Assembly: GCF_041381155.1 (NCBI RefSeq)
Contig: NC_091141.1
Span: 27,029,828 to 27,093,827 of the forward strand
Length of the DNA stretch: 64,000 nt
Origin: Argopecten irradians
Lineage: Eukaryota; Mollusca; Bivalvia; Pectinida; Pectinidae
Direction: 5' to 3'
Of this stretch, positions 451-57,592 are shown in pieces. How positions within the stretch are numbered: the stretch's first letter is position 1; every line of letters starts with the position of its first letter. A model generated the notes under the pieces. It did not search any database. It had not been told where the DNA came from and saw nothing but the letters and a program-made list of their open reading frames with translations. A program made the position numbers and the translations under genes.

Positions 451-3400
451 CTATCCCTCCTGTATATACTGCCCCAGTACCCCCAGACACTCGGCGTAGA
501 AGTCCGGTACAAGACGTCTCGTGGCGGGATCAGAAGACCTTCCGAGGGCCTCCATGTCCTCCTGAGTAGTGATCCCAGAAAGGACCAGTAGGGACTTTAG
601 GCCCGAGTTTTTGGCCAGTAGGATGTCAGTACTGGGTCTGAAATGTAAATAGTATTATCGATCCGCTAAAAAAAGAACATTTTCATTTTATTGAAATTTT
701 ATGTCAATATGCTAATTTCAAATTTTCTTAACATGATTAATAACGCCATAAACCCGTTTGGTAAAATGCATCGGTCCCCTGCGATTCATGGTTTTATCAA
801 AGATATCAAAAACTTAATTATACTTTGCTTAAATTAAATAAATAATAGATATGTATCGAAGACATGAATTCAATTGTAACTGAAATCAGAGCGTCTTCCC
901 AATATAAAAAGCATAAACCCGACAACAGCTTTCAGATATACCCCCTTGTTGTTCCAAGTCAATATCAATGTCGTAATATCCACCTCTGGACAACCCTATC
1001 GTAAAACTGGAGTCACTTCAGGAGAAATATAACACGACCAATTACAAGCCTGGAGAAATCCTTTAAAAAGAGTGAAACCCAGCTTCAAAGCCATACATTG
1101 TACCGTTTATTCGATGCTATTCTACCGCACTACCTGTATCACGTGTTGTCGCCCACTGAGCCTTCAGTTTTGTTATGACATATATATATGATCCAGGAAA
1201 ATCTAACTAAAATCCACAATTCACTGTGTACACTCCGTAAACCTCGTTCATATGGAGTTTAATGAGACGAGTCCATGGGTGGATATGCCGACAGTGATAG
1301 TAAACACTGGAATATAAGTAAATATACTTATATACATACGTATCTCCAACCATCATGGTCCTGGCCGGGTCTAAGTTATGAGCATCCCTCAGGACGTCAA
1401 AGATCGCAGGTTGGGGTTTACCGACGACGATAGGTTCTCTTCTCGCAGGCACCTTGATAGAAGACACGATACTTCCGGTTCCTGCCAACATTAAGAACGA
1501 TGAGCATCAGGATCACGTATAGAGGTTTACCAAGAGAGGTGATATAGCAATTCATTGTCAGAAACTCGGAAAGTACTATTCTAAATCTGACAAACGGCAA
1601 AACTGTACAAATTTTCGTCGTTATGGCGTTAGGATTCAAAATATGTTCTGTTCTATCCAAACCAAAAGGCAATTGCAAGGTAGCTGGAAATGGAAATGAC
1701 CATAAGAACAATATACATTAGCTCGTATTATTATATCATTATTGACTTTGCAAATAATAGTATAGCGCCAATACACAATAGCATTGATTTCACGCAAAAT
1801 AGTATTGTGTTAGCACGTTTTCTGCCACTATCAACTCTATACATTGCCCAATTGTATGATTGACCATTGGCCGGCCGAAAATAGAAACTACGCAATACTC
1901 TCCTAGACCTATCAAATTGTCACGTGACTTGATACCCAGGCGTACCTGGTACGACAACGTCCTCGGTGTGGAGGGGTAGGTGGGTGTCCTCATTCGTCGC
2001 TAGAAACAACACGTGTGGACGTCGGGCGTACGACGCACCTTTCACCATCTTTATAAAACTGATGTTAGGATCGAACCCTACTAGCACACAGCTAACCTGT
2101 ATACAAAAAAAATGTTGTAAATTTTGCAGCATGAATTATTGTCTTTCATTTTTATCCATATAAACCATGTTTCAAGCCATATGGGAAAAAAAGATAAAAA
2201 AGAAAATGAAATTGACATTTTACAGTTGAATTCATTATAACCTTATCTTTGTCTCACCTCTGGGTCGAGTTCCGTTGGGACGAAATCTTCTAGCCTTCTT
2301 TGATCCCCCACTGTATCAGGCTGTAGTATATAGATCAAAAGACAATTAAAGTTCAGTAACTAAACTCAATGAAGCTCGTTACTCGTGTTAAAATCAATCA
2401 CTGATCAGTGTGCGTCTGATTTTGACTGAAACACCGAATCGTATTACATCTAACTAGGAACATTAGCAACACTTGATTCCGACGACACCACTGGCTTAAT
2501 TTATGGAAATGGTAAAATAAATACCATTGGGGAAAGATAAACGTACTTGTCTATCATCATGTTGATGCTACAATCTTAATCAGATAAACTGCCATAGCGA
2601 AGTACAGACAAATAGTTGAGGTCAGTGGCTATGTGTCGACGTTTTCATTCTATAAATGTGTTGGTTTTTTTTAATAAAGCTGAGAAACATACCGATGTGC
2701 GCTGTAAACGTTTTTGTCAAGAGGCAGAATAAAACGAGAAAAAAAAACATAAAAATAAGCCTATGATACGACGTTTCTTTCACAGAAGGAGGGCCTCCTA
2801 TATATAAACAGCGACTATTTAACTTTAAATAGCCATACGACTTACCCCAAGGCCAGTATGACGTATTCCAAACCTGTCCAACTCCTCCCCCATGGCCGGG
2901 TTCCCGACTACATACACTTTACCATTAAACTTCCGGTTGTGAAGGTACAGTGCACTGGCGTAGGCTGTACACAACACCTCGTCCTGAGTAAAACACATGT
3001 AAACTAATAAAATAACCAAGAAACACGGTTTATGTCAATATGTTACAGACAAGAACATGTAACCCTATATTGATGGGAGAAGACTACCAAATACACCTTC
3101 AAAGCGTGTTACGCCCTTTTGTATTTACAAGACTAAACATTCATATTGCTTAGTACTCATTCTTCAATTGCTCATGGCCAACCTTTCGCATCCTTCAGTT
3201 ATTCACTGTCAGGCTTTTGCCCCCTTTAGTTGCTCATGAGCAAACTTTAACATCATTCAGAGACTCACGGAGAAACCTTAGCATCCTATAAATGCTCAAA
3301 GTCCAACTCTTGCATCCTTCAATTGTTTATTGCCAAACTTACGCATAAAATAGTTTAAATTCAAACTTTCGCATCTTTCAATTGACCATGATCAAACTTA

Positions 3401-5910
3401 CGCATCCGTCTGTTGTTATGACAAAACCTTCCCATCCTTCAGTTACCCATAACCAAACCTTCGCATCCTTCATTTGCTCCTAACCCAACTTTCCCATCCT
3501 ATAGTTGTTCATTACCAAACTTTTGCAAGCATCTGTTGTTCACAGGCAACTGTTGTTCACAGGCAAACTCTCTCCTTAATAGTGACTAGATACACGTGTA
3601 CCGAAAAGCCGGTAATTTTAGCGGAAATGATGTTTTCGCGCTTTGGTGGATATATTGTTTGTAACATCAAACATCAAAACTAAAATCCCTAAAACACAAA
3701 AATAGAGATTCTTAAAAATATTATAACATAAGGAAACATATACAGATGAGGTTATAATACAAAACAAATGCAAGATTTCCTTCGTAAACTATGTTAACAT
3801 TGAAGATTCGTTTCGCTGTTTTACCGTCTCACTCAGCGATAGTCAACTAACGCTGGTAATAAGGACGACGGCGGGAAATATAATACGACCCGCGTTATGA
3901 AAATTAACATTTAATTTACATTATTTTAGATGTGTAGAGGGTGATGACAGGCCTAGTATTAACAGTAAGCTAACAATTTTTGCGAATCTACAAAATTATC
4001 AATCTCGTTTTGCATTCCAATTTTGAAAATTAAAAATTGTTTCGAAAAGGTAGCGGGCCTTTAAGTAAATCATATATATACTCTTTTAATTTTTATATGT
4101 ATTGAAACATTTTTGGTGTATTTGACCCAGGAAAGTAACCGGTTATAAATATGGCTCTCCTGTAACTTACCTCGGTAGCATTATAGCCATACTTATGACA
4201 GATATTTAGGTAGTACTGTCTTGTATCATTACTGTTGTTCGTTAGGTAGAAAACTCGTTTCCCCTGTAAATTGAAAAATGTCAATTAAAGCAGGTATTAC
4301 AAAAGTTTGTTGATAAAAGAATAGTGAATGTAAGAGACAAACTTTAGAGCTCGCGCGAAATTAAATTTATTTTCAATGTTAAAACTGTTGGACCAATGGA
4401 CACAAAACAACACATGTAACAGATGCATTCTTTGTCGCGTCATTGCCGTAATTTTCATATAGGCCCCTAATATTCTTTACTCTAATGGCATTTTTTTTCA
4501 TCATCTTATCATCAGCTATTCTTTTCAGTATCCCCGATATTCTATTGGTAACTATCACTGTGGTTATAGTGGATATAACGTCAGTGATAGTTACCCAGGG
4601 AGTATTGAGGATGTCTTCTCAGCAACATTATCTGCAACTTCTTCATACGACCAAATGTATTACTACAATTATATCATTATATTTGGTAATCGTGTGGTGT
4701 AGTAGTCAAGTCATTCGCCTTTTATCTAGCCGACCGGGGTTCGATCCACGAATTAATAGGTCAGGGTCCGGTTACTAACCTGTAAATTATTTAATTTTCA
4801 AGGAAGGATGTACTGACAGTGATATTAACCCCTGATATATCGAGAATGCAGTGTGTCTGGAACTATAATAATTTAGCGAGTTAACACAATTAAAACTTGA
4901 GGGAGACACAGCACAGCCTTGCTGCATTCTTTTTTAATACCAAACGCATGCGTGACGCATAATGAGGCTCATTTTAGTTGACCTTAAAATTGATGATTGT
5001 CAACTTTGTGAGTTAAAATATATACACGACCTTCTTTTATCCATCGTATTCAGAGTTACACTAACTCGCTCGTCCTCCACAACCTTTATAAATATTTACT
5101 ATATTCAGTGTACATGTACATGTAACATACGTGTATGTGCATGCTCGTAATATTGAAGATGCTCCCACGCCTACATAGCTTAAATGATATTCATTATTTG
5201 AACTATAATTGGTGTTTAATCGTGTATATGTATCTCTAAGTAACACAAACAAATGATATAAAATAATTCGTTTTGCCTTTGGTGCATGCGCAATTAATAC
5301 TTCATTCCGTACAGGATATAGTGCCACGGAATTTTTTCGAGATGCAATTAATTATTTTTCATATTTTTAACTTCACAAGTAAAATTAGAAGCACAAACTT
5401 TCCAATGGTGATAATGGTGTAAAGGAAGTAATCTTTGTAACTGAAGAAAAATACTTTATCGTCTGTTTTTGATAGTGAAAAAAATACCGTTTGTCGGCGG
5501 AGGAGCATCATTAAGTACAAGTAACGTGTATTTCCTATATTTAGCGTAATATATACTCGCCCGTGATTTCAGCAGCTTTATCGTCTCCACGCTGCCTGGG
5601 ATTGCCTCTGAATTTTTCCACAACACACCTAGACCAAAATCCAAGGAATCAAATATTGCAATAAACAGCAGGCTCAGTGCTAATTATATATTTAGCTCAC
5701 TAGTGTACAGTAGGTAGAACAAGTCTGCATGGTTTATGTACATAACATTATTCCGTTACACATATTACACCAAGTGATCATTTACAAAGCAATACCATAT
5801 AGCAAAGGTGCATGTATGAACCCCAACTCACCGAAACAATCAAACACAAAGTTGTCTGTTGACTCCATGATTTCCTCCGTGACTTTAAGATCGACATGTC
5901 TACAGGCCAT
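451..5910 (-). CDS. PGP-like HAD phosphatase, copy A (probable pseudoenzyme)
   Basis: Eight coding exons read on the minus strand: 5910-5832, 5628-5561, 4263-4171, 2983-2846, 2320-2258, 2096-1946, 1481-1340 and 637-451, giving 306 residues. The start ATG lies in a strong context (ACCATGG), with an in-frame stop about eight codons upstream. The family (glycerol-3-phosphate/phosphoglycolate phosphatase and chronophin, about 300-320 aa) hydrolyses small phosphate esters in the cytosol through a phospho-aspartate. Visible motifs are: motif I at 24-27 as DCFG instead of DxDG; the TNNS motif with T57; the lysine of GKP (K219); and GDxxxTD (D244, D249). The C-terminus has the typical VPDFY segment. 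The nucleophile D24 is kept, but the acid/base Asp at 26 is Phe, so hydrolysis should be badly impaired. Intron 2 starts with GC, not GT. The frame is open throughout, so this is not an ordinary decayed pseudogene. A possible ATTAAA signal lies at 320-315. Resemblance is closer to PGP than to PDXP. Confidence 0.9.
955..1200. repeat. Dispersed repeat fragment in copy A intron 7
   Basis: TAATATCCACCTCTGGAC, GTAAAACTGGAGTCACTTCA and TTATTCGATGCTATTCTACC match the repeat at 9290-9500 in the same order. Confidence 0.5.
3163..3570. repeat. 31-bp minisatellite in copy A intron 3
   Basis: About 13 degenerate units of 31 bases, consensus GCATCCTTCAGTTGNTCATN followed by ACCAAACTTTC, lie in intron 3 of copy A. 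One short inner duplication (CTGTTGTTCACAGGCAA) occurs at the end. Confidence 0.85.
3690..4064 (-). mobile_element. MITE family 1 copy in copy A intron 3, one end eroded
   Basis: The right end is intact (GGTAGCGGGCCTTTAA) and the interior matches the family (ACGACCCGCGTTATGAAAAT). The left terminal repeat is no longer recognisable, so the start is approximate. It lies between exons 3 and 4 of copy A. Confidence 0.7.
4690..4780 (+). mobile_element. tRNA-like SINE head in copy A intron 2
   Basis: TGGTGTAGTAGTCAAGTC resembles an A box, and GGGGTTCGATCCACG is a near-consensus B box about 35 bases later. No paired acceptor stem was found. Confidence 0.4.
5153..5514 (+). mobile_element. MITE family 2 copy in copy A intron 2
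   Basis: About 362 bp from TTGAAGATGCTCCCACG to CGGCGGAGGAGCATCATTAA, with the family interior. It ends 45 bases from the GC donor of this intron (5560-5559). Confidence 0.8.
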
Positions 5911-9575: not shown

Positions 9576-10370
9576 GATGATGTATACTATTTACTTGTTT
9601 TTCATTACAGAACAAATTTATCATGAAACATAAGAGTTCAACATAAGTCAATAAATTGCCAGCAACTTCAGTCATCACAAACACCAATTCTCCAAAACAT
9701 ATATCTCAACAAATTATAATCATATCTAAGGTAACAGTGACCTTGAGCTTTGACCTCAGGTCTGAAAAGATACATACCGGTAAATGTACATTTTGTATGA
9801 AAGATGTGCATTAAATTTGGAGCATTATCAGCCCAAGGTAACTTGACTTGCCACACATACAGAAATCATTTTTCTGTTTATAGATAATTTATAAATAGCT
9901 GAGGTAGAGTTAACATAAATTCTGGGAGAGTTGGTTAATCAGACACAGAAAGTAGTAAGTTATAATTGTTACCTTGTACAAGGACACATACATAAATGTA
10001 TCATCTATTGTCCATTGTACACAAACACAGATATTTGGTTCAATCACAGGTCACATAGCTATGACCATACAACAGCAGCCACTTATAAAAGCATGCATTA
10101 AAGTCACCGGGTCCATCATTACAACTTTGAAACTGTCTTCTTTCTTAAATTTTTAGCTTCAACATAAAAATTGGATTACTAAAGAACTGAAAGTACATAT
10201 AGATCTGTACAACTGATATACAGGAATATCAAAGATTTTATTTACCCAGGTACCGGTAATAGCCACAAATTTAATTCACATGGACAATTCCTTTTCATAT
10301 TTGTTGTGGATTTCATACTATACTGTCTATACTATCTTATTATTATTATTATTTTTTTTTTTTTTTTTTT

Positions 10371-10468
10371 TTGGTTTTTTCGTAAAAGTTACGGTCACGG
10401 ATTAACCATATGCACCATATTGGTTTTTTCGTAAAAGTTACGGTCACGGATTAACCATATGCACCATA
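10371..10468. repeat. Perfect 49-bp tandem duplication
   Basis: Two identical adjoining units of 49 bases (TTGGTTTTTTCGTAAAAGTT to CATATGCACCATA) follow a long T tract at 10350. No difference between the units was seen, so the duplication is young. Confidence 0.95.
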
Positions 10469-10490
10469 TACAACCCCAAATTTTGTTTTA

Positions 10491-10867
10491 TTAAAGATGC
10501 TCCACCGCCATAAAAGAGCGTAAAAGATATTCATCATTTGAACAATAATTGGTGTTTAATCGTGTATATATATACATGTATGTCTAATTAACACAAAAAA
10601 TAATATAAAATAATTTATTTCACCTTTGGTGCATGCACAATCAGTACTTCATTCCATATAGGATATAGTGACATGGAATTTTTTCGGGATGCAATTAATT
10701 ATATTTCATATTTTTAACTTGGAAGTAAAATTAGAAGCTCAAACTTTTCAGTGGTGGTAATGGTGTAAAGTAAGTAACTTTTGTAACAGAATAAAAATAC
10801 TAAATCATCTGCTCCTGTTTTTGATAGTGAAAAAAAATACCATTTGTAAGCGGCGGGGCATCTTTAA
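10491..10867 (+). mobile_element. MITE family 2 copy (GATGCTCCACCGC ends, TTAA-flanked)
   Basis: 377 bp from TTAAAGATGCTCCACCGCC to GCGGCGGGGCATCTTTAA. It shares its interior with the copies near 5153 and 57722. Different sequence from family 1, but the same TTAA habit, so possibly the same type of transposase. Confidence 0.85.
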
Positions 10868-10869
10868 AA

Positions 10870-11797
10870 TCATACAAGAATTCCACGGAAGTGGATGTGT
10901 CACCCGCACAGCATCACAAAAAATAAGATAGTTATTTACAGTTGAAAATATTGTTAATAATTAGGTGAAGATATCAAATCCCGTAACTCTTGCAAATATT
11001 GATGGATTTTGACAAGTATCAAACCCATTTTAAATCTCATTAATATAAAGCAATACACAAAATTTGGTTGAAGTTATATAGCGGAAACCATGTTTTGACG
11101 ATTTTAAAGTCCAGTAACTCTTGCAAATATCGACGTATTTTGACCATTATCGAACCCATCAAAGATCTCATTGATATAAAGCGATACATGTACATCAAAT
11201 TTGGTTGAAATCGGACAATAAATAATAAAGTTATTGAGCGGAAACAATGGATTTATCTGTTTTAACAATTTTAAAGTCCTGTAACTCTTGCAAATATTGA
11301 CAGATTTTGACCATTATCGAACTCATACGAGATCTCATTGATATAAAGCAATTTATGAAATTTTGTTGAAAATGGACAATAAATATTTAAATTATCGCAC
11401 GGATAACATGGATTTATCTGTTTTGACGATTTCAAAGTCCTGTAACTCTTGCAAATATTGACAGATTTTGACCATTATCGAACTCATACAAGATCTCATT
11501 GATATAAAGCAATTTATGAAATTTTGTTGAAAATGGAAATAAATATTTAAGTTATCGAGTGGAAACCATGGATTTATCTGTTTTGACAATTTTAAAGTCC
11601 CATAACTCTTGCAAATATTGACGGATTTTGACCATTATCAAACTCATATGAGATCTCATTGATATAAAGCATTATACCAAATTTGGTTGAAATTTGACAA
11701 TAAATAATTAAGTTGTCGCACGGAAACCGTTTCCCAGACGCCGACATAGTGATATCTAAGTGTCGCCCTTGCGTTGCAGGCGACACAAAAATCGGGA
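10870..11797. repeat. Element with five ~155-bp tandem units and hairpin end
   Basis: Five units from about 10976 to 11735, each with GTAACTCTTGCAAATATTGA, GATTTTGACCATTATCGAAC and CTCATTGATATAAAGC. They are flanked by GTGTCACCCGCACAGC on the left and a GTGTCGCCCTTGCG hairpin (inverse GGCGACAC) on the right. This layout is known from widespread bivalve minisatellite elements, possibly Helitron-derived; the class is not proven. It abuts MITE family 2. Confidence 0.7.
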
Positions 11798-11944
11798 AAT
11801 GTTTACCCTTGAAAATAAACCGCTATTTGATATAACAGCAAAAAGAACTGCAGCACAAACACACATATGATTTTGATTTTTTTATACTTTCTCAAAGTTT
11901 CTAATAAATAACTTTATAAATATATTCCTAAGGATCTACAAACA

Positions 11945-14900
11945 TCAAAGAGAATCTGGGATGTGTTTTCCGAATTCCCAAAGACATTTCGCGACATGGT
12001 CCGGGAGATTTCGTGTGATCTCCGTGTCTGTGGACTCTTTGTCTCTATCTAGATCTTCCTGGCTCACTACCCCAGATAGGACCAACAAGGAGTGAAGTCC
12101 GCAGTTCTTGGCCAAGGCCATATCTGTGTTACATCTGTTTGGACAGAAAACAAAAATATGATATTAACCTTAAAGATTGGGGATGGGGTATAAAAGGGAG
12201 ACAACTTGGAGAAAATGGCTGGAAATACAACCAATTCTGCATCTCTCACTTCACTTTCTTGAAAACATAAAACTTAAATTCTGTCATGGTTGTTATTGTT
12301 TAGTAAGGAATTCATATATGATATTAGTTTTATGAACAAAATTATAAATCAGGTACTTTTTCAATTTTAGTAAGTATTATATATATATAAGGATCAGGTG
12401 CCTACATGTCAATCACAGTTTGAATTTGCTGTTAGCCTAAGCAGAAGTTTATAGTGGAAGTTTACAGACATGTACTGTTGTTAGGGTGTAGACTATGCAT
12501 GCTGAGTAATCAAGTCACTGTACCTTATCTCTGTTTTAGCAGGTATTATCCAGAAACTCAGACACATACACATAAATCCAATTAGCAGATTGAATAACAC
12601 AGACATATGCAAATTATATAAATTTCTATAATGTTTCTAGTATAGAAAATATTACTAAAATTGATTAGGATGGTAGAATCAACAAATAGGTGTATGAAGA
12701 TTACAAATCCATTGGAGTTAAGAGCTATTTCCAAAGATATGTCCCATGTTTGCTACATTTTCTGGATTAGGAAACCAAAAGTGCACAAGATTTACAACAC
12801 AGTCAGGCATTATTTCACGGCGATAAACTAGTTTTTGGGTAGCAGAGCTGCTAGTTTTCTTTCAATATATCTCCGACCATGAAATACATTGCTATGGTAA
12901 AGGAATGTCCAAAATCGCCTGTGCAATTCCTTCCTTCAACTTCAATTAATTCTTAATTCTTATTAATTCACTCATCAGTTTGAGTTGAAACATCTTTTTT
13001 TTTGTACTGTACGCTTGAGTTTTTCACAACAATCATAAGATGCCATAGTGTGTTATCTATGGCCCTTTTACTGGCTGTCTGGAGGGAAAGAGTTGGTCAC
13101 TTTGTAGGGAGTGGTAGGGTACAGCAGAAAGGTAAATGTTTCAGAGGGATGCTGAATGATGGATTAAATACAACTTGAAAACCAGCACTACATTATATAT
13201 TTTATCTAAAATTTATAATACTTCTGTCTGTAAAATACAGCAGTGAATGTGATACAAAACCAAACTTTTTATTTCATTTAATGTGTAATTTTATGTGTTT
13301 CTTCAATAAGGAAAATGATGTTCAATAAATACACAAATATTTCCTGACCGGTACTTCTGGTCCCAAAGCAAGTGTAGGGAATTCATAGTGATGTAACATA
13401 TAGTCATTCAGTTATTTACAGTAGACTGAAGCGCAACATCGTCTCATTTATATAGTTAACCTTACTGAAAATTTACGATAGTCATGGAGGAAAAAAGAAA
13501 AACACCAGCATGTTTTAAGATGGAAATACTGGGAGATGAAACAATGAAAAGGGCTACAACAAAAAATGCATAAAGTGAGAAACTTGATATTTAGAAAGGC
13601 AGGACACCCAGTGAACAATGGAGACATCATGACTGAAGTATTGGAATATTTTCTTCAGGGACAAAAGGGCAATTAAAACCAGGAAAGAGTTCTAAAGTTC
13701 AACACCTACGGTATACCTACACGCAGAGGAACAAAAATCGGATATTTTCTGACTGCACGCGTGTCTTAAGAGAAATTGATTAAAGTCACACAAAAACACT
13801 CTCTGATATGCCAAGGAAATGTCCATTTTAAGAAAATTGCAATGAAAGGACATGCAGCTGTAGTCTGATTGAGCTGTAATAAATACCTTCACCGTATCTA
13901 CCCAAAAACAGATACCTGGTGAATTACAGAATGTATCATGGAATGAAGTTTTATAATATTAATTCTGCAGCCATCAGAAATGAATATGAGGACAGTATTG
14001 AGACAGCAGTATTAGAGGAAGTGGCAATTAAGTTACCGTATTCGACCCAATAAGCGCCCAGAGCGTTTAAATTTAAAAAAAAATCATAATGAAAAGATGC
14101 TGATAAGACAAAATTATTGCAAATCTATACAGTTTTGTGTAGTTTTGGTCTTCATTTATGCCTGGGCAATTGAAATTGAGGTCTCAAAAAGGAGAGGGTG
14201 CTTATAGGGACATGAGCTCATATTGGGTCAAATACGGTACGAAGAATTAATAGATGGCATAGATGTTATGAGTGATGCTAGACATGTGTGGAGAAAGAAT
14301 ACCAAGGATACTAACTAGTGTTGTTGTCGCCATGGGACAAAATTCACACAAAGTTCGATTCTATGCCATATTCATATTACAATGGCAGACAACCCAATTT
14401 CCCAACAAAAAATTGGGGACTGAAAAGTTTTATGAAAATATGGATGAGAAACCAACCTCAATAAACATTCACACACATGACAGAAATCTGGCAATAAACA
14501 ATTTGTTAGAGAGTCAAAGTATTCAACAAACCAAATTGACAGCTGGCATTCAACCAAAAGTTTGAAAAAAGCATTGTGTAATGCTTCAACAGATCCAGCT
14601 TATCATGCATCACTTCTTCAAGACAAAGTTGAAGCCACACTAACACATGCTTTTTTAAGCATAAGAACATGCAATGTGGATCCCGATCTGCTTAAACAAA
14701 ACCTGTTGAACATGATTAAACATTACAAAGGAAACAAAGGATACTGAATGTCATAATGAAAGCAGATGTAGAACAGACAAGAAGTAATATGAACCATCCA
14801 GACAAATTCTTTCAGACAAAATTGCTACAGAACTTCTGTTTAAAGTTACCACAAATTCAGTTTTATAGAAATCTCCACAGGATTATGTCCTTGCACATGA

Positions 14901-17900
14901 TACATGTTATGTTGAAAGATTCAATTACGTGATGAATATTTTTCATGACAAACAGATTTCAGTTAGCACCAAAACAATATAAAACATGAACAGAACTTGT
15001 AGCTTATTTTTATTATATTCACTGCAACTTCTTGTTTCTTTCACTATGAACTAAATTACTCTTTCCTTTTCCGACACATCTCTAGATCTGCTAAATTTTG
15101 GGTTCACAGATGGCAGACTTTAATCCCATTCAATTACGAATACAATTACCTACCCCTCCAAAAATCATCTGGAGCACTGTGACCTCTACAATCCCTGTGA
15201 CCTTGGTTGAAGGTGAAGGTCATGGAGCATTACAGACAAACTTGATTTGCCATTTGAGCATAATGATATCTTCATACAATATCAAATGAGGAAATTTTAG
15301 AACTATACACGTCAGATACAACTGTAAACCAACTTTCTTTTGCTTGCATATTTCACAGTCAATCAGAACTTGCAAAAAATAATTGATGTAAAAAATGACA
15401 ACTACAAGAACAAAATGTAACAGTTTTTAAAAATAAATCGCAAAATTAAATAATCATGAAATATGAAATTAAGATGTTGCAGAAAATAAATCGGATTATA
15501 TATACATAAATTTGTTTTGTTCTGACACCAACAAATCTATACATACCTGTCTCCCACCATTAGTGTTCTACTGGGATCCAGCCCATGGGCCTCTTTCAGG
15601 ACATTGAATATTGTAGGGTTGGGCTTGCCTATTACGATAGGTTCCCGCCGAGCTGGGGTCTTAACAGCTGCAACTATACTCCCAGTACCTTAGACACCAT
15701 ACAAAGGAAACAAAAGGTCTAATATACCTGTATATACATTTTTACAACATGGAAAGCTCTATTATAATGAGCCCTCCACCTCTGGGTCATGGGATTCGAA
15801 CTCATGACCAAGAGGTGGAGAGCTTATGGAGATATATTCTCTTAAAGTTATATATGTGTTGTAACTGGGTGAACATTTGACATGCTATTTTATTCTTCAG
15901 TGTAATCTTTTGAAAACCATCAGGTTTGATGAATTAAGCTATGAAAATAATTCATATAGAAAGATAAACATGTATGTTGCCATATAAATATTACAACACA
16001 GAATTAATGCACTGTAATGGAAACAATCAGGAATCACTTTACAATTACTTATAACACTGTAAAAATGTGAAATGGAATTGTCAACCACAACTTGTCTTCA
16101 TGGACTATCTGTATGTACTCATTTCACTACCCCTAGCTGGTATGTTGTAAATGAAAAATTCTTGATTTTAGCAGTACTGCCAAAATCATTTTCAGCTCTT
16201 ATTTGTACTTGTAAAATTATTGCATTGCATTGTAAGTATCATATTTCTCAAAATGTTGGTAATTTTTGGTTGTGAATAGAATATTAAAACTCTTTTTGAT
16301 TCGTGAGTATGAAAATTACAGATATAACTTTATAACTGGCAAATTCTATAATGATCCTGACTGTTAAAATGATACAAATTAACATAAATCCAAACCCTAA
16401 TTAATCAATTCACTGTCTGCTACTGAATGCCACCCTAAACCACACTGTGAAAGTTATCAAATATTACATATGGATTACACCATACATCTATCATAACCAG
16501 TGGTCAATCGGTCAAACCAGAACTAAGAGAACCGCTCACCTGGGATAGTGACCTCACTCCTGAGAGGCAGGTGGGAATCCTCGTTTGTTGCTAGGAACAA
16601 CGCACCTTCTTTCCTGGCATATGATGCCCCCTTCACCATCTTGTTCAGACTAAGGTCAGGGTCAAACCCAACTAATACACAATCTACCTATAAAATAAAA
16701 GTCCAAGGTCAAGGTCAAAGCCAATCATTACCAAATCTTCCTGTATAATAAAAGTCAAGGTCAAAGCCAACTAATACACAATCTACCTATAAAATAAAAG
16801 TCCAAGGTCAAGGTCAAAGCCAATGAATACACAATCTGCCAATATAATAAACAATAACAATATCATTGCCATTTAGGTTCATAGAAGTTTGATAGAAGTA
16901 GCTCAATTGTTAGAGCATCTAGCTGAAGTGTTTGGTGGTCCCGAGTTCAAACTCTCGCCTGGCCATGCATTTTCTGTTTCTCTTACATTTAGTGTCACAT
17001 TTTAGTGTTTTCTTCTTTTCCAATAACTTTTCTACAGTATTCTCCCAAACTAAGCAAAGAAAAATAGTTTCATCAAAAATTCTGCAATGGTTTATAGTCA
17101 ATATATTTATACAGTCAAACCTGCTATAAAGGACATCTCTAGAGAAAGGACGCTTGTCTTCATAAACGAGACTCATCAACCCCATATAGTGCAATTTACT
17201 TATATGATTGTCCCCTACATAAAATATACCTGTCTAAGGACAGACTCATCAATACAATTTGGTGTTATTTACTATATCATTTACCTCTAAATAAATGATA
17301 CCTGGCAATGGTGCAATTTACTACATAATTTACTTAATAATTCAACATAAATAATATAATTGACCTCTGTATAAAAGATACCTGTCTAAACAGGACATTT
17401 TCACTATTTCCCTATGGTGTCCTTTATAGACAGATTTGACTGTATTATATCCTCTATTCTAGTAAATTACCAAATGTTACAAACACAAACCTCTGGGTCA
17501 AGTTTTGTACTGGCAAAATCTGTAAGTAATGACTTGTCTCCCACAACATCAGGCTGAAGAAAAATACAAAAAGAAGATTAATGTAATTGAATATCAATTT
17601 AGTAAAGATTATTAATGAAAATAGTTCTATAGTATAATCAATCAAAGAAAAGGAATAAATTTCACTCTGTATCTCATCGCCAGAAAAAACTGTGATTAAT
17701 ATAACTACATTGATAGTAACCCCTCGAGTATTGAGGTTGGGGTAGATAAAACAAAAATAACAGTTACGTCTGGAATATTGAAGATGATTGATATAAAGCC
17801 GACCACCATAGTCTTATGATAGAAAAAGTAAACGATATTTACCCCAATGCCTGTATGTTTGATACCGAAGTTGTCCAGCTCCTCCCCCATGGACTTGTTT

Positions 17901-20784
17901 CCAACCACATACACCTTCCCCTGGTGTTTCCTGTTGTGGAGGTACAGGGCCGCAGCGTAGGCCGTACACAGAATCTCATCCTACCGAATAAGTTATTTGT
18001 TTTCATCAGTAGAGAGAAACCTGTGAAAACTGGCCCTTAATGTTTAAACCATATCTATTCTAGCTTTGCTTAATTTTCCTCTTATACAATTATAATAATT
18101 AAAACCTATGTGATCTGGAATGCGTCTTTATCGATCATAAAACCTGGACTCGGTGGGTATACTGTTTAGAGAAGTTTTATGGTATATACCTGCAGTTCAA
18201 GAACAAACACAATTTTATATGTTGAACTAATACTTTAAAGTTTATATACAATTTAGAACATTTACATGAAGAAATTTTAAATGAATATTTTATCAATTTG
18301 AGGTTTAATGGTTATCAACTAAAGCTTTAATTACTGGTGAAACTTACTATACGTTTTGAAGTTGTTTATATAGTTTGAGAAACTGGAACTTCACTTTATC
18401 TGTATACTATGCTTAAATTAAAATTCATGTTATGAAAATTGTGTAAATCATTTAAAGTAAGATTACTTTTTTTGTGGATTTAATGACGTTTTACTTTCAT
18501 TGTTTACAGTATAACTTTCAGTTCCGGAAGAGGTACAAAATTTTAGCCCAAAGCAACTTTCATACAACACTCACCTCTACGACTGGGAACCCTAACAGCT
18601 TCTCACACTTGTCCTTGTATTTTTTCCTGGTGTTTGTGCTGTTGTTGGTTATATAATACACTTTTTTACCCTGAAAGCAACACAAAATATTTCAATTTTT
18701 AATTCATTAGTAAAGCCACTTGCCTTAGTTTAGAGCCTTGTCTTGTAAATCAAAATAGTGTACAAATACATTTTCTGTTCTTATAATGTAAAAGACATTG
18801 GAGTCGATCATTACAAGAAAGAACAAAATATATTTTGGCCAAAACATCCATCTGATATAAATATAATAATACTAGACAGACCATTAGGCTATGTGCTGAG
18901 ACATTAGTAAATAGTTCCATGTTCGGCCCAATAAGCAACCCTGTAAGCCACATGACCTATTTCCAGGTAAAAAAAGTTGTAAATAGCCCATAACATACTC
19001 ATCAGTTTTTTGTTTATTTGATTTCTTTGCAAATTGATTTAAGGCTTACTTGTGTAAAACATAAGTCATAAGTTTGTCATTTCTAATTAGTATCCCCTCA
19101 TTTTTTTCAATTCAAATTTTTGAGCCATAAATATAAGTACTTATTGGGTTGAAAACAGTAACTTTGTTATCAATTAATAATGGTATCAGTGAAATAAAAA
19201 TATTGTTGTTTTCTTTATTTATTCATCAATTTGTTTGTCATATCAGATCATATATCTCAATCTAGAGCTGCTCCTCTCAAAGTAAGTCCACTTATGTTAC
19301 TGTATTCCACCCTACAAACACCCCTCTCCCTATTTTGAAGCCTCCATATGCATTTTACTACCATGGCCTCAAATTAATTGCAGTACAAAACTAGGTAAAT
19401 CATGATGATTTCCTTATTTAGTTGCATTTGCAAATTGATTTTTTGGCTTCGATAATTAGTGCTACAATTTTGTTAAAGTTAGTCAAAATTTGGACCTACA
19501 TTATATTGTACACGTATAGCTACATGTATTATGCCCCCTTCATTTGTTCAGGCACTTTATATGTGATTGTAATGATATACAATAACTTACCAGTTTCTTT
19601 AAACGTTTTAACGTCTCTGGACTGCCTTCTATAGCTGTGAGTCCATCCCACAGAACACCTGGAAAAAACAAGCTTATATGTGTGCAAGTTTTATATTAAA
19701 GCTATTTATTCCAACAGTTATGTTCAAGGTATAACACGACGAGAAATATTAATTTTGAATCACTTCATACATTGTGTCCTTAATTTATACTTTTTGTCAA
19801 ACAAACTGCAAGTTTCTTAATGTTTTACATCTAGTATTATTGTAATATATACAGTATCAAAACTTCAAGTTGACTAGCCAGATGCGTTTGACACCCCTTT
19901 AACCTTATCATGTATAAGTTACATATTATGACCCAGCCAGCCAGTTCATGCACATGCAGTGCTAATGTTATGTAGTGGCATTGGACTGGGTCGATCATCG
20001 GTGACCAGGTAGCTCAGTTGGTAGAGCACTCAGCTATATAGTGTTCGGAGGGTCCCAGCTTCGAATTCCAGTCTGGCCGCTACATTTTCTCCTCTCCTGT
20101 TACAGAATTGGCGCCCAACTAATTAACCCACATTGGTGGTTGTTTGGAAGGGTCTTGTATGTCTTTGAGGGCTAAGACTTTGAGAACGATGGGAGGAGTG
20201 TAACTGATATTTATACATTACATGCAGATGTATATTATACATGTACATTTTGATATATTAGGAACTCACATTCAGATGCCTATTTCTCTCTTTTATAATT
20301 GTTATAAGTAATAACATAGTGCAATATAATACGAGTTTGCTCCCTTGGCACGTTATCTGTAATGTATATAACACATGCTATATCATGTGATCGGAGACAT
20401 ACACTTGACACGACTTGTTACTATCCAGTCTTATGAGACCTAATAATTATAGGTTATTACGTAGAATTATAATAAGAAATTCAGAAAAAGAGAATGTGGG
20501 CGGATCCCGGATCTCCGTGACGTACATTGTTTAGTACATCAAAAATGACACATGTAACTTATACATAGAGTAATTATAACTTACCGGTAATGTTAACACG
20601 CACATTTTAAATTTCACGACCGATCGATGATAAAATACATCTTCTTAATCAAATCCAAAAACTTGTTAATAAAAGCAATCAAAGAACTACATCTCTAAGT
20701 CTTACCGTCACAATCGAAGACAAAATTATCAACATTATCAAGGATCTGCTTAGCAGACAGCTCGGTGACTGGACTGCATGCCAT
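11945..20784 (-). CDS. PGP: PGP-like HAD phosphatase, copy B (catalytic motifs intact)
   Basis: Eight coding exons on the minus strand: 20784-20706, 19658-19591, 18670-18575, 17980-17843, 17553-17491, 16687-16540, 15688-15547 and 12134-11945, giving 307 residues. All donors are GT, and intron positions and phases match copy A. Expected role: HAD (C2 cap) phosphatase that dephosphorylates glycerol-3-phosphate or 2-phosphoglycolate in the cytosol using Mg2+. Motifs: I, DCDG at 24-27; II, TNNS with T57; III, GKP with K219; IV, GDRCNTD at 243-249. The cap region carries TAYAAALYL and a VGFD segment as in PGP. The start MACS was chosen because it aligns with copy A. The same frame, however, stays open upstream to an ATG at 21039 and another at 20880, which would add a basic N-terminal extension. 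Introns hold SINEs, MITEs and a transposase-like relic; intron 7 is 3.4 kb. The PGP versus PDXP assignment is an inference from motif resemblance. Confidence 0.92.
14034..14239. mobile_element. MITE family 3 copy in copy B intron 7
   Basis: 206 bp with inverted ends TACCGTATTCGACCCAATAAG and TATTGGGTCAAATACGGTA. No ORF. An older relative lies at about 18915-19160. Confidence 0.7.
14272..14747 (+). pseudogene. Decayed transposase-like fragment in copy B intron 7
   Basis: Two abutting open frames (14272-14565 and 14562-14747, different frames) together resemble a piece of a DNA-transposon-type protein seen in invertebrates. An initial DRNLAINNLL stretch is followed by LKKALCNAS and a later IRTCNVDPDLLKQNLLNMIKHY. 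A tryptophan-rich block expected between them appears deleted. There is one clear frameshift and no start context. The family cannot be named with certainty. It lies antisense to copy B. Confidence 0.35.
15770..15835. repeat. Hairpin made from a SINE B-box segment
   Basis: CCTCCACCTCTGGGTCATGG ... CATGACCAAGAGGTGGAG around GATTCGAACTC is a self-complementary version of the SINE tRNA-like 3' half. It lies in intron 6 of copy B, about 80 bases upstream of the exon 7 acceptor in the gene's direction. Confidence 0.5.
16635..16860. repeat. Tandem ~50-bp units duplicating the exon 6 acceptor of copy B
   Basis: About four units of TAATACACAATCTACCTATA plus AAGTCCAAGGTCAAGG. The first spans the true acceptor (AG at 16689-16688) and the first bases of exon 6. 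The others lie in intron 5 and carry copies of the same acceptor and exon edge. Confidence 0.8.
16888..16985 (+). mobile_element. tRNA-headed SINE relic in copy B intron 5
   Basis: A box GTAGCTCAATTGTTAGAGC, B box CGAGTTCAAACTC and CTGGCCATGCATTTTCTG are shared with the relic at 20004. The acceptor stem is not fully paired and no 3' body remains. Confidence 0.55.
18915..19160. mobile_element. Old MITE family 3 relative in copy B intron 2
   Basis: Ends CATGTTCGGCCCAATAAGC and ACTTATTGGGTTGAAAACAG are inverse to each other and resemble the element at 14034-14239. The interior is diverged. Confidence 0.45.
20004..20200 (+). mobile_element. tRNA-headed SINE relic in copy B intron 1
   Basis: A box GGTAGCTCAGTTGGTAGAGC, B box GCTTCGAATTCC, then CTGGCCGCTACATTTTCTCC and an unrelated-looking tail. 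The tRNA head is long for a tRNA and the arms are partly unpaired, so it is a SINE head and not a gene. Confidence 0.55.
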
Positions 20785-56458: not shown

Positions 56459-57592
56459 ATGTTTGATCACAACTACACCATTCTGAGGCCACGAGGCTTG
56501 GAAGGAGATCGGCCATTGGTCCAAATTATACCGGAAGTGATTCTGCTCGGTGTGCTCTGGTGTATTAGTGTTATAGGGAACCTACTTGTATGTATAGTAA
56601 TTTACCGGAGTCGACGTGTCCAGTCTACAACAAACTACTTTGTGGTCACTTGCGCATGCGCAGATTTGCTGTTTATATTCGTAGTTATACCATTGGAATG
56701 CGGAAGGATAATTTTGAGTGAGTGGGTGTTTGGTGATTTTATGTGTAGATGTGTACGTTTTGTACAGGCGGTTTTCCCTAACGTCACCCTGTATATCCTC
56801 ACATCTATCGCAATTGACCGGTACTATACAATAGTATACCCACTAAGCTTTAAAGTCACACGAGAAATTGCAAAGAGAATGATCGTAATGTGTTGCCTGC
56901 TGTCTTGTCTCTTGTCAAGTTATAGTTTATATTTTTATAAAGAGATTGGTATATTAAGTAACGACAACGCGTCCAAAAGCGTTTGTCCGACCTTCGTGAA
57001 TCCTATCAATAATACTAGTCTAGCTTTCACTCTAAGCTCTGTCCTACTACAATACGTTATCCCCGCGGTGGTGGTCGGAGTCATCTATTTCCGGCTGACA
57101 AGATTCATATGGCGGTCAAGTGGAAAATGTCTCCGATTTAAAAGAACAACGAATAACGTGCCTAGGACGAAGGAGAAGATGGTCAAAATGTTGATTGTTA
57201 TGACGATAGTCACTATGGTGCTGTTTCTGCCGTTCTTTTGTGTTGTTTTATGGGTTGCCTTGTATTTACCGACAGAAATGAACCCAACTATTTTCATTGT
57301 GTGCCTATTTTTACTACTTCTCGCCACAGTTGCCAAACCCATGATATATGCATGCTGTAACTCTAACTTTCGGCGCGGTTGTAAAGAAGTGTTTTGTATG
57401 TCCAACTCTCGCTGTTATCGCAGTAGTACATATGCCATAACAACAGCCTCTGCATTTGGGAAGAAAAATCACGTGGGAATCATGAACGGTAACTCTGTTA
57501 GGAATTCCCCAACTAAAGCATTTGACAGATCCAATCATGTAGATAAGAGCGTGTGGCCTATTCAGGGGAGTTTACCCACAACTTATCTCTGA
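56459..57592 (+). CDS. GPR19: GPR19-type class A G-protein-coupled receptor
   Basis: A single open frame of 377 residues. It has a class A rhodopsin fold: N41 of GNLLV (TM1), D69 of ACADLL (TM2), C96 (TM3) expected to pair with C176 (loop 2), DRY at 120-122, P202 (TM5), FLPF at 256-259 (TM6) and KPMIY at 293-297 in place of NPxxY. I recall vertebrate GPR19 as sharing several blocks: SRR.QSTTNYFVV, the DR(Y/F)YTIVYPLSFKV run after TM3, NxVPRTK in loop 3, SKPTLY in TM7, NFRRG then FCMS and CYRS in the tail, KKNxVGI and WPI near the end. The lysine of KPxxY is thus a family trait, not damage. N-glycosylation sites are N5, N170, N184 and N185. GPR19 is a plasma-membrane orphan-type receptor. An acceptor-like AG at 56409-56410 suggests the leader is spliced. 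A possible ATTAAA lies at 57664. Confidence 0.95.
   Translation: MFDHNYTILRPRGLEGDRPLVQIIPEVILLGVLWCISVIGNLLVCIVIYRSRRVQSTTNYFVVTCACADLLFIFVVIPLECGRIILSEWVFGDFMCRCVRFVQAVFPNVTLYILTSIAIDRYYTIVYPLSFKVTREIAKRMIVMCCLLSCLLSSYSLYFYKEIGILSNDNASKSVCPTFVNPINNTSLAFTLSSVLLQYVIPAVVVGVIYFRLTRFIWRSSGKCLRFKRTTNNVPRTKEKMVKMLIVMTIVTMVLFLPFFCVVLWVALYLPTEMNPTIFIVCLFLLLLATVAKPMIYACCNSNFRRGCKEVFCMSNSRCYRSSTYAITTASAFGKKNHVGIMNGNSVRNSPTKAFDRSNHVDKSVWPIQGSLPTTYL

Follow-up and report, generated by a model that had tools for sequence, protein, structure and literature searches.

A candidate pseudophosphatase: a tandem PGP/PDXP-type phosphatase paralogue of Argopecten irradians without the second aspartate of motif I

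Introduction

What becomes of a phosphatase gene that has lost one catalytic residue and kept the others? Catalytic HAD phosphatases carry a nucleophilic Asp in motif I, an acid/base Asp two residues further on (the +2 position of DxD), a Thr or Ser in motif II, a Lys in motif III, and an Asp pair in motif IV. One of two tandem paralogues in the window (the whole stretch of A. irradians DNA analyzed here, 64,000 nucleotides), referred to below as copy A, has the nucleophile (D24) and the residues of motifs II to IV (T57, K219, D244, D249), with Phe (F26) at the +2 position. Pseudoenzymes are known to arise when a gene is duplicated and one copy loses a catalytic residue, and pseudophosphatases in other families include the STYX-type proteins and Tim50. 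As a class these have kept the fold and lost a catalytic residue, as copy A appears to have done, though the families differ; those treated in PMC3827238 are of the tyrosine-phosphatase kind.

Gene structure and motif I

Copy A consists of eight exons on the minus strand (5910..451), which join in phase into a frame of 306 aa:

5832..5910, minus strand: exon 1, residues 1-26 and base 1 of codon 27, with motif I D24-C25-F26-G27
5833..5835, minus strand: F26 codon, TTC (the copy B equivalent is GAC, Asp)
5561..5628, minus strand: exon 2, followed by the GC donor CGG/GCGAGT
4171..4263, minus strand: exon 3, motif II TNNS (T57, N58, N59)
2846..2983, minus strand: exon 4, cap segment, in the interval between motifs II and III (cap from alignment to 7po7)
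2258..2320, minus strand: exon 5, cap
1946..2096, minus strand: exon 6, cap
1340..1481, minus strand: exon 7, motif III K219 and motif IV D244, followed by the donor TAC/GTATGT
451..637, minus strand: exon 8, D249, C-terminus, and stop

Its tandem neighbor upstream, copy B, lies in the same orientation (minus strand, 20784..11945) and encodes 307 aa:

20706..20784, minus strand: exon 1, with DCDG
19591..19658, minus strand: exon 2
18575..18670, minus strand: exon 3
17843..17980, minus strand: exon 4
17491..17553, minus strand: exon 5
16540..16687, minus strand: exon 6
15547..15688, minus strand: exon 7
11945..12134, minus strand: exon 8

The two genes have their eight exons and intron phases in common, and 187 of 305 aligned residues are identical; copy B differs in keeping DCDG and GDR and in having GT at all seven donors. 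The 3′ end of exon 1 (slashes mark exon-intron boundaries) is TTT GAT TGT TTC G/GTGAGT in copy A, giving F-D-C-F-G, and TTC GAT TGT GAC G/GTAAGA in copy B, giving FDCDG. The F26 codon (5835-5833) is thus the last whole codon ahead of a clean GT donor. No other first exon that could supply the Asp to copy A was found on the minus strand below 24 kb with one exact pattern (GAY-NNN-GAY-G, then GT or GC and a purine), whose sole match was copy B's own site.

A preliminary description of this locus had pointed to 5832-5910, where copy A reads DCFG against DCDG in copy B, and had described the exons of copy A as open and correctly phased, with the other motifs remaining. All of this agrees with the gene model given here: the interval is exactly exon 1, the joined frame has no internal stop or frameshift, and T57, K219, D244, and D249 are present. 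Its statement that a change from Asp to Phe takes at least two base changes is likewise borne out by the codons, the path from GAC or GAT to TTC running through Tyr or Val.

Several further features of the region can be recorded. An ATTAAA lies 130 bases past the copy A stop, with none in the 600 bases past that of copy B. A tandem array of a unit of about 161 bp (3.9 copies, 11091-11728) sits close to copy B exon 8, on its downstream side. A second copy of window positions 9881-12655, including this exon and DNA downstream of it, lies some 16 Mb from it along the contig (L024; C8:43064155-43064328 and flanks); in the longest alignment between the two, of 896 columns, identity is 90%. The exon copy there carries an in-frame stop, and the whole is a fragmentary duplication. 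Elsewhere in the window, a single-exon frame of 377 aa (plus strand, 56459-57592) resembles a seven-helix receptor by eye; the nearest sequence to it elsewhere in the genome has 30% identity.

Family assignment

Both copies, and a third paralogue elsewhere in the genome (C), score above the curated cut-off (201.95 bits) of TIGR01452 (PGP_euk), the eukaryotic phosphoglycolate/pyridoxal-phosphate phosphatase subfamily, with 256.4 bits for A, 273.2 for B, and 230.9 for C. Copies A and B are also above the cut-offs of Pfam Hydrolase_6 (99.3 and 107.2 bits, respectively) and Hydrolase_like. Copy A can be placed among the HAD-IIA proteins with a C2 cap, both by its match to TIGR01460 (161.3 bits; cut-off 100.15) and by an alignment to mouse PGP (7po7) that spans the cap. 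Among solved structures this is its best match (E 1.3e-64); a PDXP/PGP hybrid ranks next, and then PDXP. TIGR01428, the type II haloacid dehalogenase model, is absent from the 18 NCBIfam matches of copy A at E 0.001.

Like PGP and PDXP (chronophin), to which it is similar over its full length, copy A has the same motif order and the cap, and it keeps D24, T57, N58, N59, K219, D244, and D249; it is unlike them in having Phe for the +2 Asp of motif I and GDT for GDR. In PDXP, Asn60 can bond to Asp27 (PMC11164532); the matching residue of copy A, N59, is kept.

Paralogue C (contig C1, L001 1276-2334) is an intronless single open frame of 352 codons that retains DCDG, and is possibly a retrogene. 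It resembles copy A in its match to TIGR01452 but lacks introns and is only 33% identical to it. In a tree of 13 sequences, of which 8 were picked by hand for spread from the 80 prokaryotic relatives described below, A and B were split from the rest at 100%; C fell beside PGP/PDXP at 52%, and support for the order of C, PGP, and PDXP is weak in part (52%, 88%). A retrocopy of copy A, as proof of transcription, was considered and rejected: the 15 best genome matches were pieces of A, B, C, and L024.

Conservation of the +2 aspartate

How unusual is the change at position 26? A first scan of prokaryotic genomes, with patterns from the alignment of A, B, and C, gave 73 pattern matches and no relatives. 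A second gave at least 598 pattern matches, at least 118 of them relatives; the analysis here covers the best 80. Every one of these best 80 of at least 118 relatives has Asp at +2, as do copies B and C, in keeping with the preliminary description's assumption that DxDG is the family norm. Because one of the two search patterns contains motif I, a fairer count is that of the 31 relatives that match the search pattern outside it, and here too the residue is Asp in 31 of 31; in 22 of these loci the +1 residue is Leu or Ile, which excludes any match to the motif I pattern.

At the 19 near-invariant columns (a single residue shared by 95% or more of the 80 relatives), copy A departs at two, copy B at one, and C at two. 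The departures of copy A are at 26 and 161, and copy B departs at 161 as well; by this measure copy A lacks one near-invariant residue that B retains, and it is a catalytic one. At the 41 columns conserved at the 80% level, departures number 10 in A, 8 in B, and 12 in C.

No published pseudophosphatase of the PGP/PDXP branch and no bivalve PGP paralogue was found in the part of the matching literature that was covered, which included few subscription papers. Of three paralogues tested in an insect expansion of the PGP/PDXP family, one is active on pNPP and apparently without action on farnesyl pyrophosphate; a +2 change is not mentioned in the accessible part of that paper (PMC3734299). Conserved motifs are described for three PGP homologues in the worm (PMC8752807), and the accessible part of PMC12184663 makes no mention of the +2 residue.

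Age of the duplication and selection on copy A

Between copies A and B, silent sites have reached saturation (pS 0.83 over 212 sites), while pN is 0.26; the duplication is therefore old, and copy A has been kept. Third-position identity ranges from 28 to 54% per exon, and blastn between the loci (word 7, E 0.001) still aligns exon 4 alone. With saturated silent sites, dN/dS between A and B is qualitative at most, which limits the dN/dS test put forward in the preliminary description.

In a simulation of neutral evolution, which models substitutions only and no indels, the probability that the frame acquires no stop is 0.63-0.29 at 0.02-0.05 substitutions per site, 0.08 at 0.1, and 0.015 at 0.2; a gene that had long been neutral would be expected to contain stops. 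In relative-rate tests, copy A has more changes than B with each of four outgroups, 23:15 with PGP, 18:14 with PDXP, 15:13 with C, and 23:14 with the outgroup L028, but none of these differences is significant (chi2 1.68, 0.5, 0.14, and 2.19, respectively). Its branch in the tree is also the longer (0.37, against 0.25 for copy B).

Splice donors and alternative explanations

Intron 2 of copy A is GC-AG, with the donor CGG/GCGAGT at 5560-5553 on the minus strand, where copy B has GT-AG; the sole in-frame GT ahead of the first stop in this intron would add 14 codons. GC donors are found in about 1% of animal introns. At the exon 7 donor, copy A has TAC/GTATGT where copy B has CAG/GTATGT, so that the last G of the exon is lost, a change that also turns GDR into GDT (R245T). 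Neither donor figures in the preliminary description.

These features are what would be expected if copy A were in early decay, under recently relaxed selection, with F26 and the two donor changes as first hits ahead of any stop. The longer branch of copy A and its lower scores relative to copy B with TIGR01452 and Hydrolase_6 point the same way, and a brief neutral phase (0.02-0.05 substitutions per site) would quite often leave no stop, by the simulation above. The donors are not decisive, however, because GC donors do occur, position 245 is variable (R in 61 of the 80 best relatives out of at least 118), and copy B has imperfect donors too (GTAAAT at exon 4 and GTTTGT at exon 5), so that such donors alone mark no decay. 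The absence of stops and frameshifts in copy A, its unremarkable count at the 41 conserved columns, the lack of a significant rate difference from B, and the need for two substitutions within the single codon of F26 all argue against early decay, which we consider rather unlikely, although the GC donor, the weakened exon 7 donor, and R245T do leave room for it. It is on this point that the pseudoenzyme reading of the preliminary description is qualified: an Asp has been lost from an otherwise intact, old gene whose rate does not differ significantly from that of copy B, and the splice-donor features keep early decay in consideration.

Alternatively, copy A might still be an enzyme, the acid being provided by another residue or by the substrate, or the aromatic +2 residue being used in a dehalogenase-like chemistry. 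Some members of the superfamily lack the +2 Asp: of five TIGR01428 matches above the cut-off in four genomes, four were examined, and these have Tyr, Tyr, Asn, and Asn there. Type II haloacid dehalogenases and copy A thus have in common the HAD core, a nucleophilic Asp, and a +2 residue other than Asp (Tyr in two of the four), and copy A has kept D24, K219, D244, and D249. It scores above the phosphatase-subfamily cut-off, though, in a family where the best 80 of at least 118 relatives all have the +2 Asp, and unlike these dehalogenases it has no match to TIGR01428 at E 0.001. Changed chemistry is therefore a minor possibility, and an improbable one. A very improbable explanation is that F26 does not represent the species, being either a rare allele or a mistake in the assembly. 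The TTC codon is known from a single assembly, with no second haplotype copy among the 15 best genome matches; against an error, it lies outside any homopolymer run and would require two wrong bases side by side, and the codons around it and the donor are clean.

A proposed role for copy A

We favor, with a little better than even confidence, the interpretation of copy A as an old tandem paralogue of a PGP/PDXP-type HAD phosphatase (HAD-IIA, C2 cap), retained by selection as a ligand-binding or regulatory pseudophosphatase after loss of the +2 Asp. Phenylalanine cannot carry a proton. The phosphoryl group in HAD phosphatases is transferred to the first Asp; the second, a general acid-base, deprotonates the water that hydrolyzes the aspartyl-phosphate (PMC12357310, PMC8069645, PMC6211248). 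In beta-phosphoglucomutase, replacement of this residue by Asn leaves ligand binding intact but abolishes proton transfer to the leaving group (PMC11283535).

The copy A protein would presumably be made, adopt a PGP-like fold, and bind Mg2+ and a phosphorylated metabolite. With its acid-base Asp replaced by a residue that carries no proton, it would be expected to bind but to release phosphate poorly: protonation of the leaving group and activation of water would be inefficient, and D24 might at best be slowly phosphorylated to an aspartyl-phosphate. A protein incapable of efficient protonation or water activation could then act, we propose, as a ligand-binding or regulatory partner.

The simplest way to such a role would be for copy A to pair with copy B through the cap. 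PGP and PDXP dimerise in this way (PMC9652372), and in chronophin dimerisation is reportedly needed to position the substrate specificity loop (title of a paper cited in PMC11164532). An A-B heterodimer is worth testing because A and B are most alike in the cap: with bounds of 81-205, chosen by us, identity is 91/124 in the cap and 89/156 in the core (Fisher p 0.006), while PGP and PDXP, at 52/112 and 78/151, have no significant contrast. The likeness of the caps fits a common partner or ligand. The contrast is modest, however; core exon 7 (34/47) is about as similar between A and B as cap exon 6 (35/49), and past gene conversion in exons 4-5, where third-position identity peaks (0.54, 0.52), could explain part of it.

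More speculatively, and in our estimation with a low probability, copy A could be a dedicated pseudophosphatase subunit in a cap-to-cap heterodimer with B, binding phosphoglycolate or glycerol-3-phosphate, possibly with a long-lived aspartyl-phosphate at D24, and setting the position of the substrate loop of B according to glycolytic load; it would then be a metabolite sensor derived from a metabolite-repair enzyme.

Judged from its sequence in one genome, copy A is a good candidate for a pseudophosphatase. PGP is a metabolite-repair enzyme, and in mice a phosphatase-inactive PGP knock-in is embryonically lethal (PMC5059750). If the pseudophosphatase interpretation is right, copy A would be a natural experiment on the role of the acid/base Asp, and would allow a test of whether a dead partner can regulate a phosphatase that dimerises through its cap.
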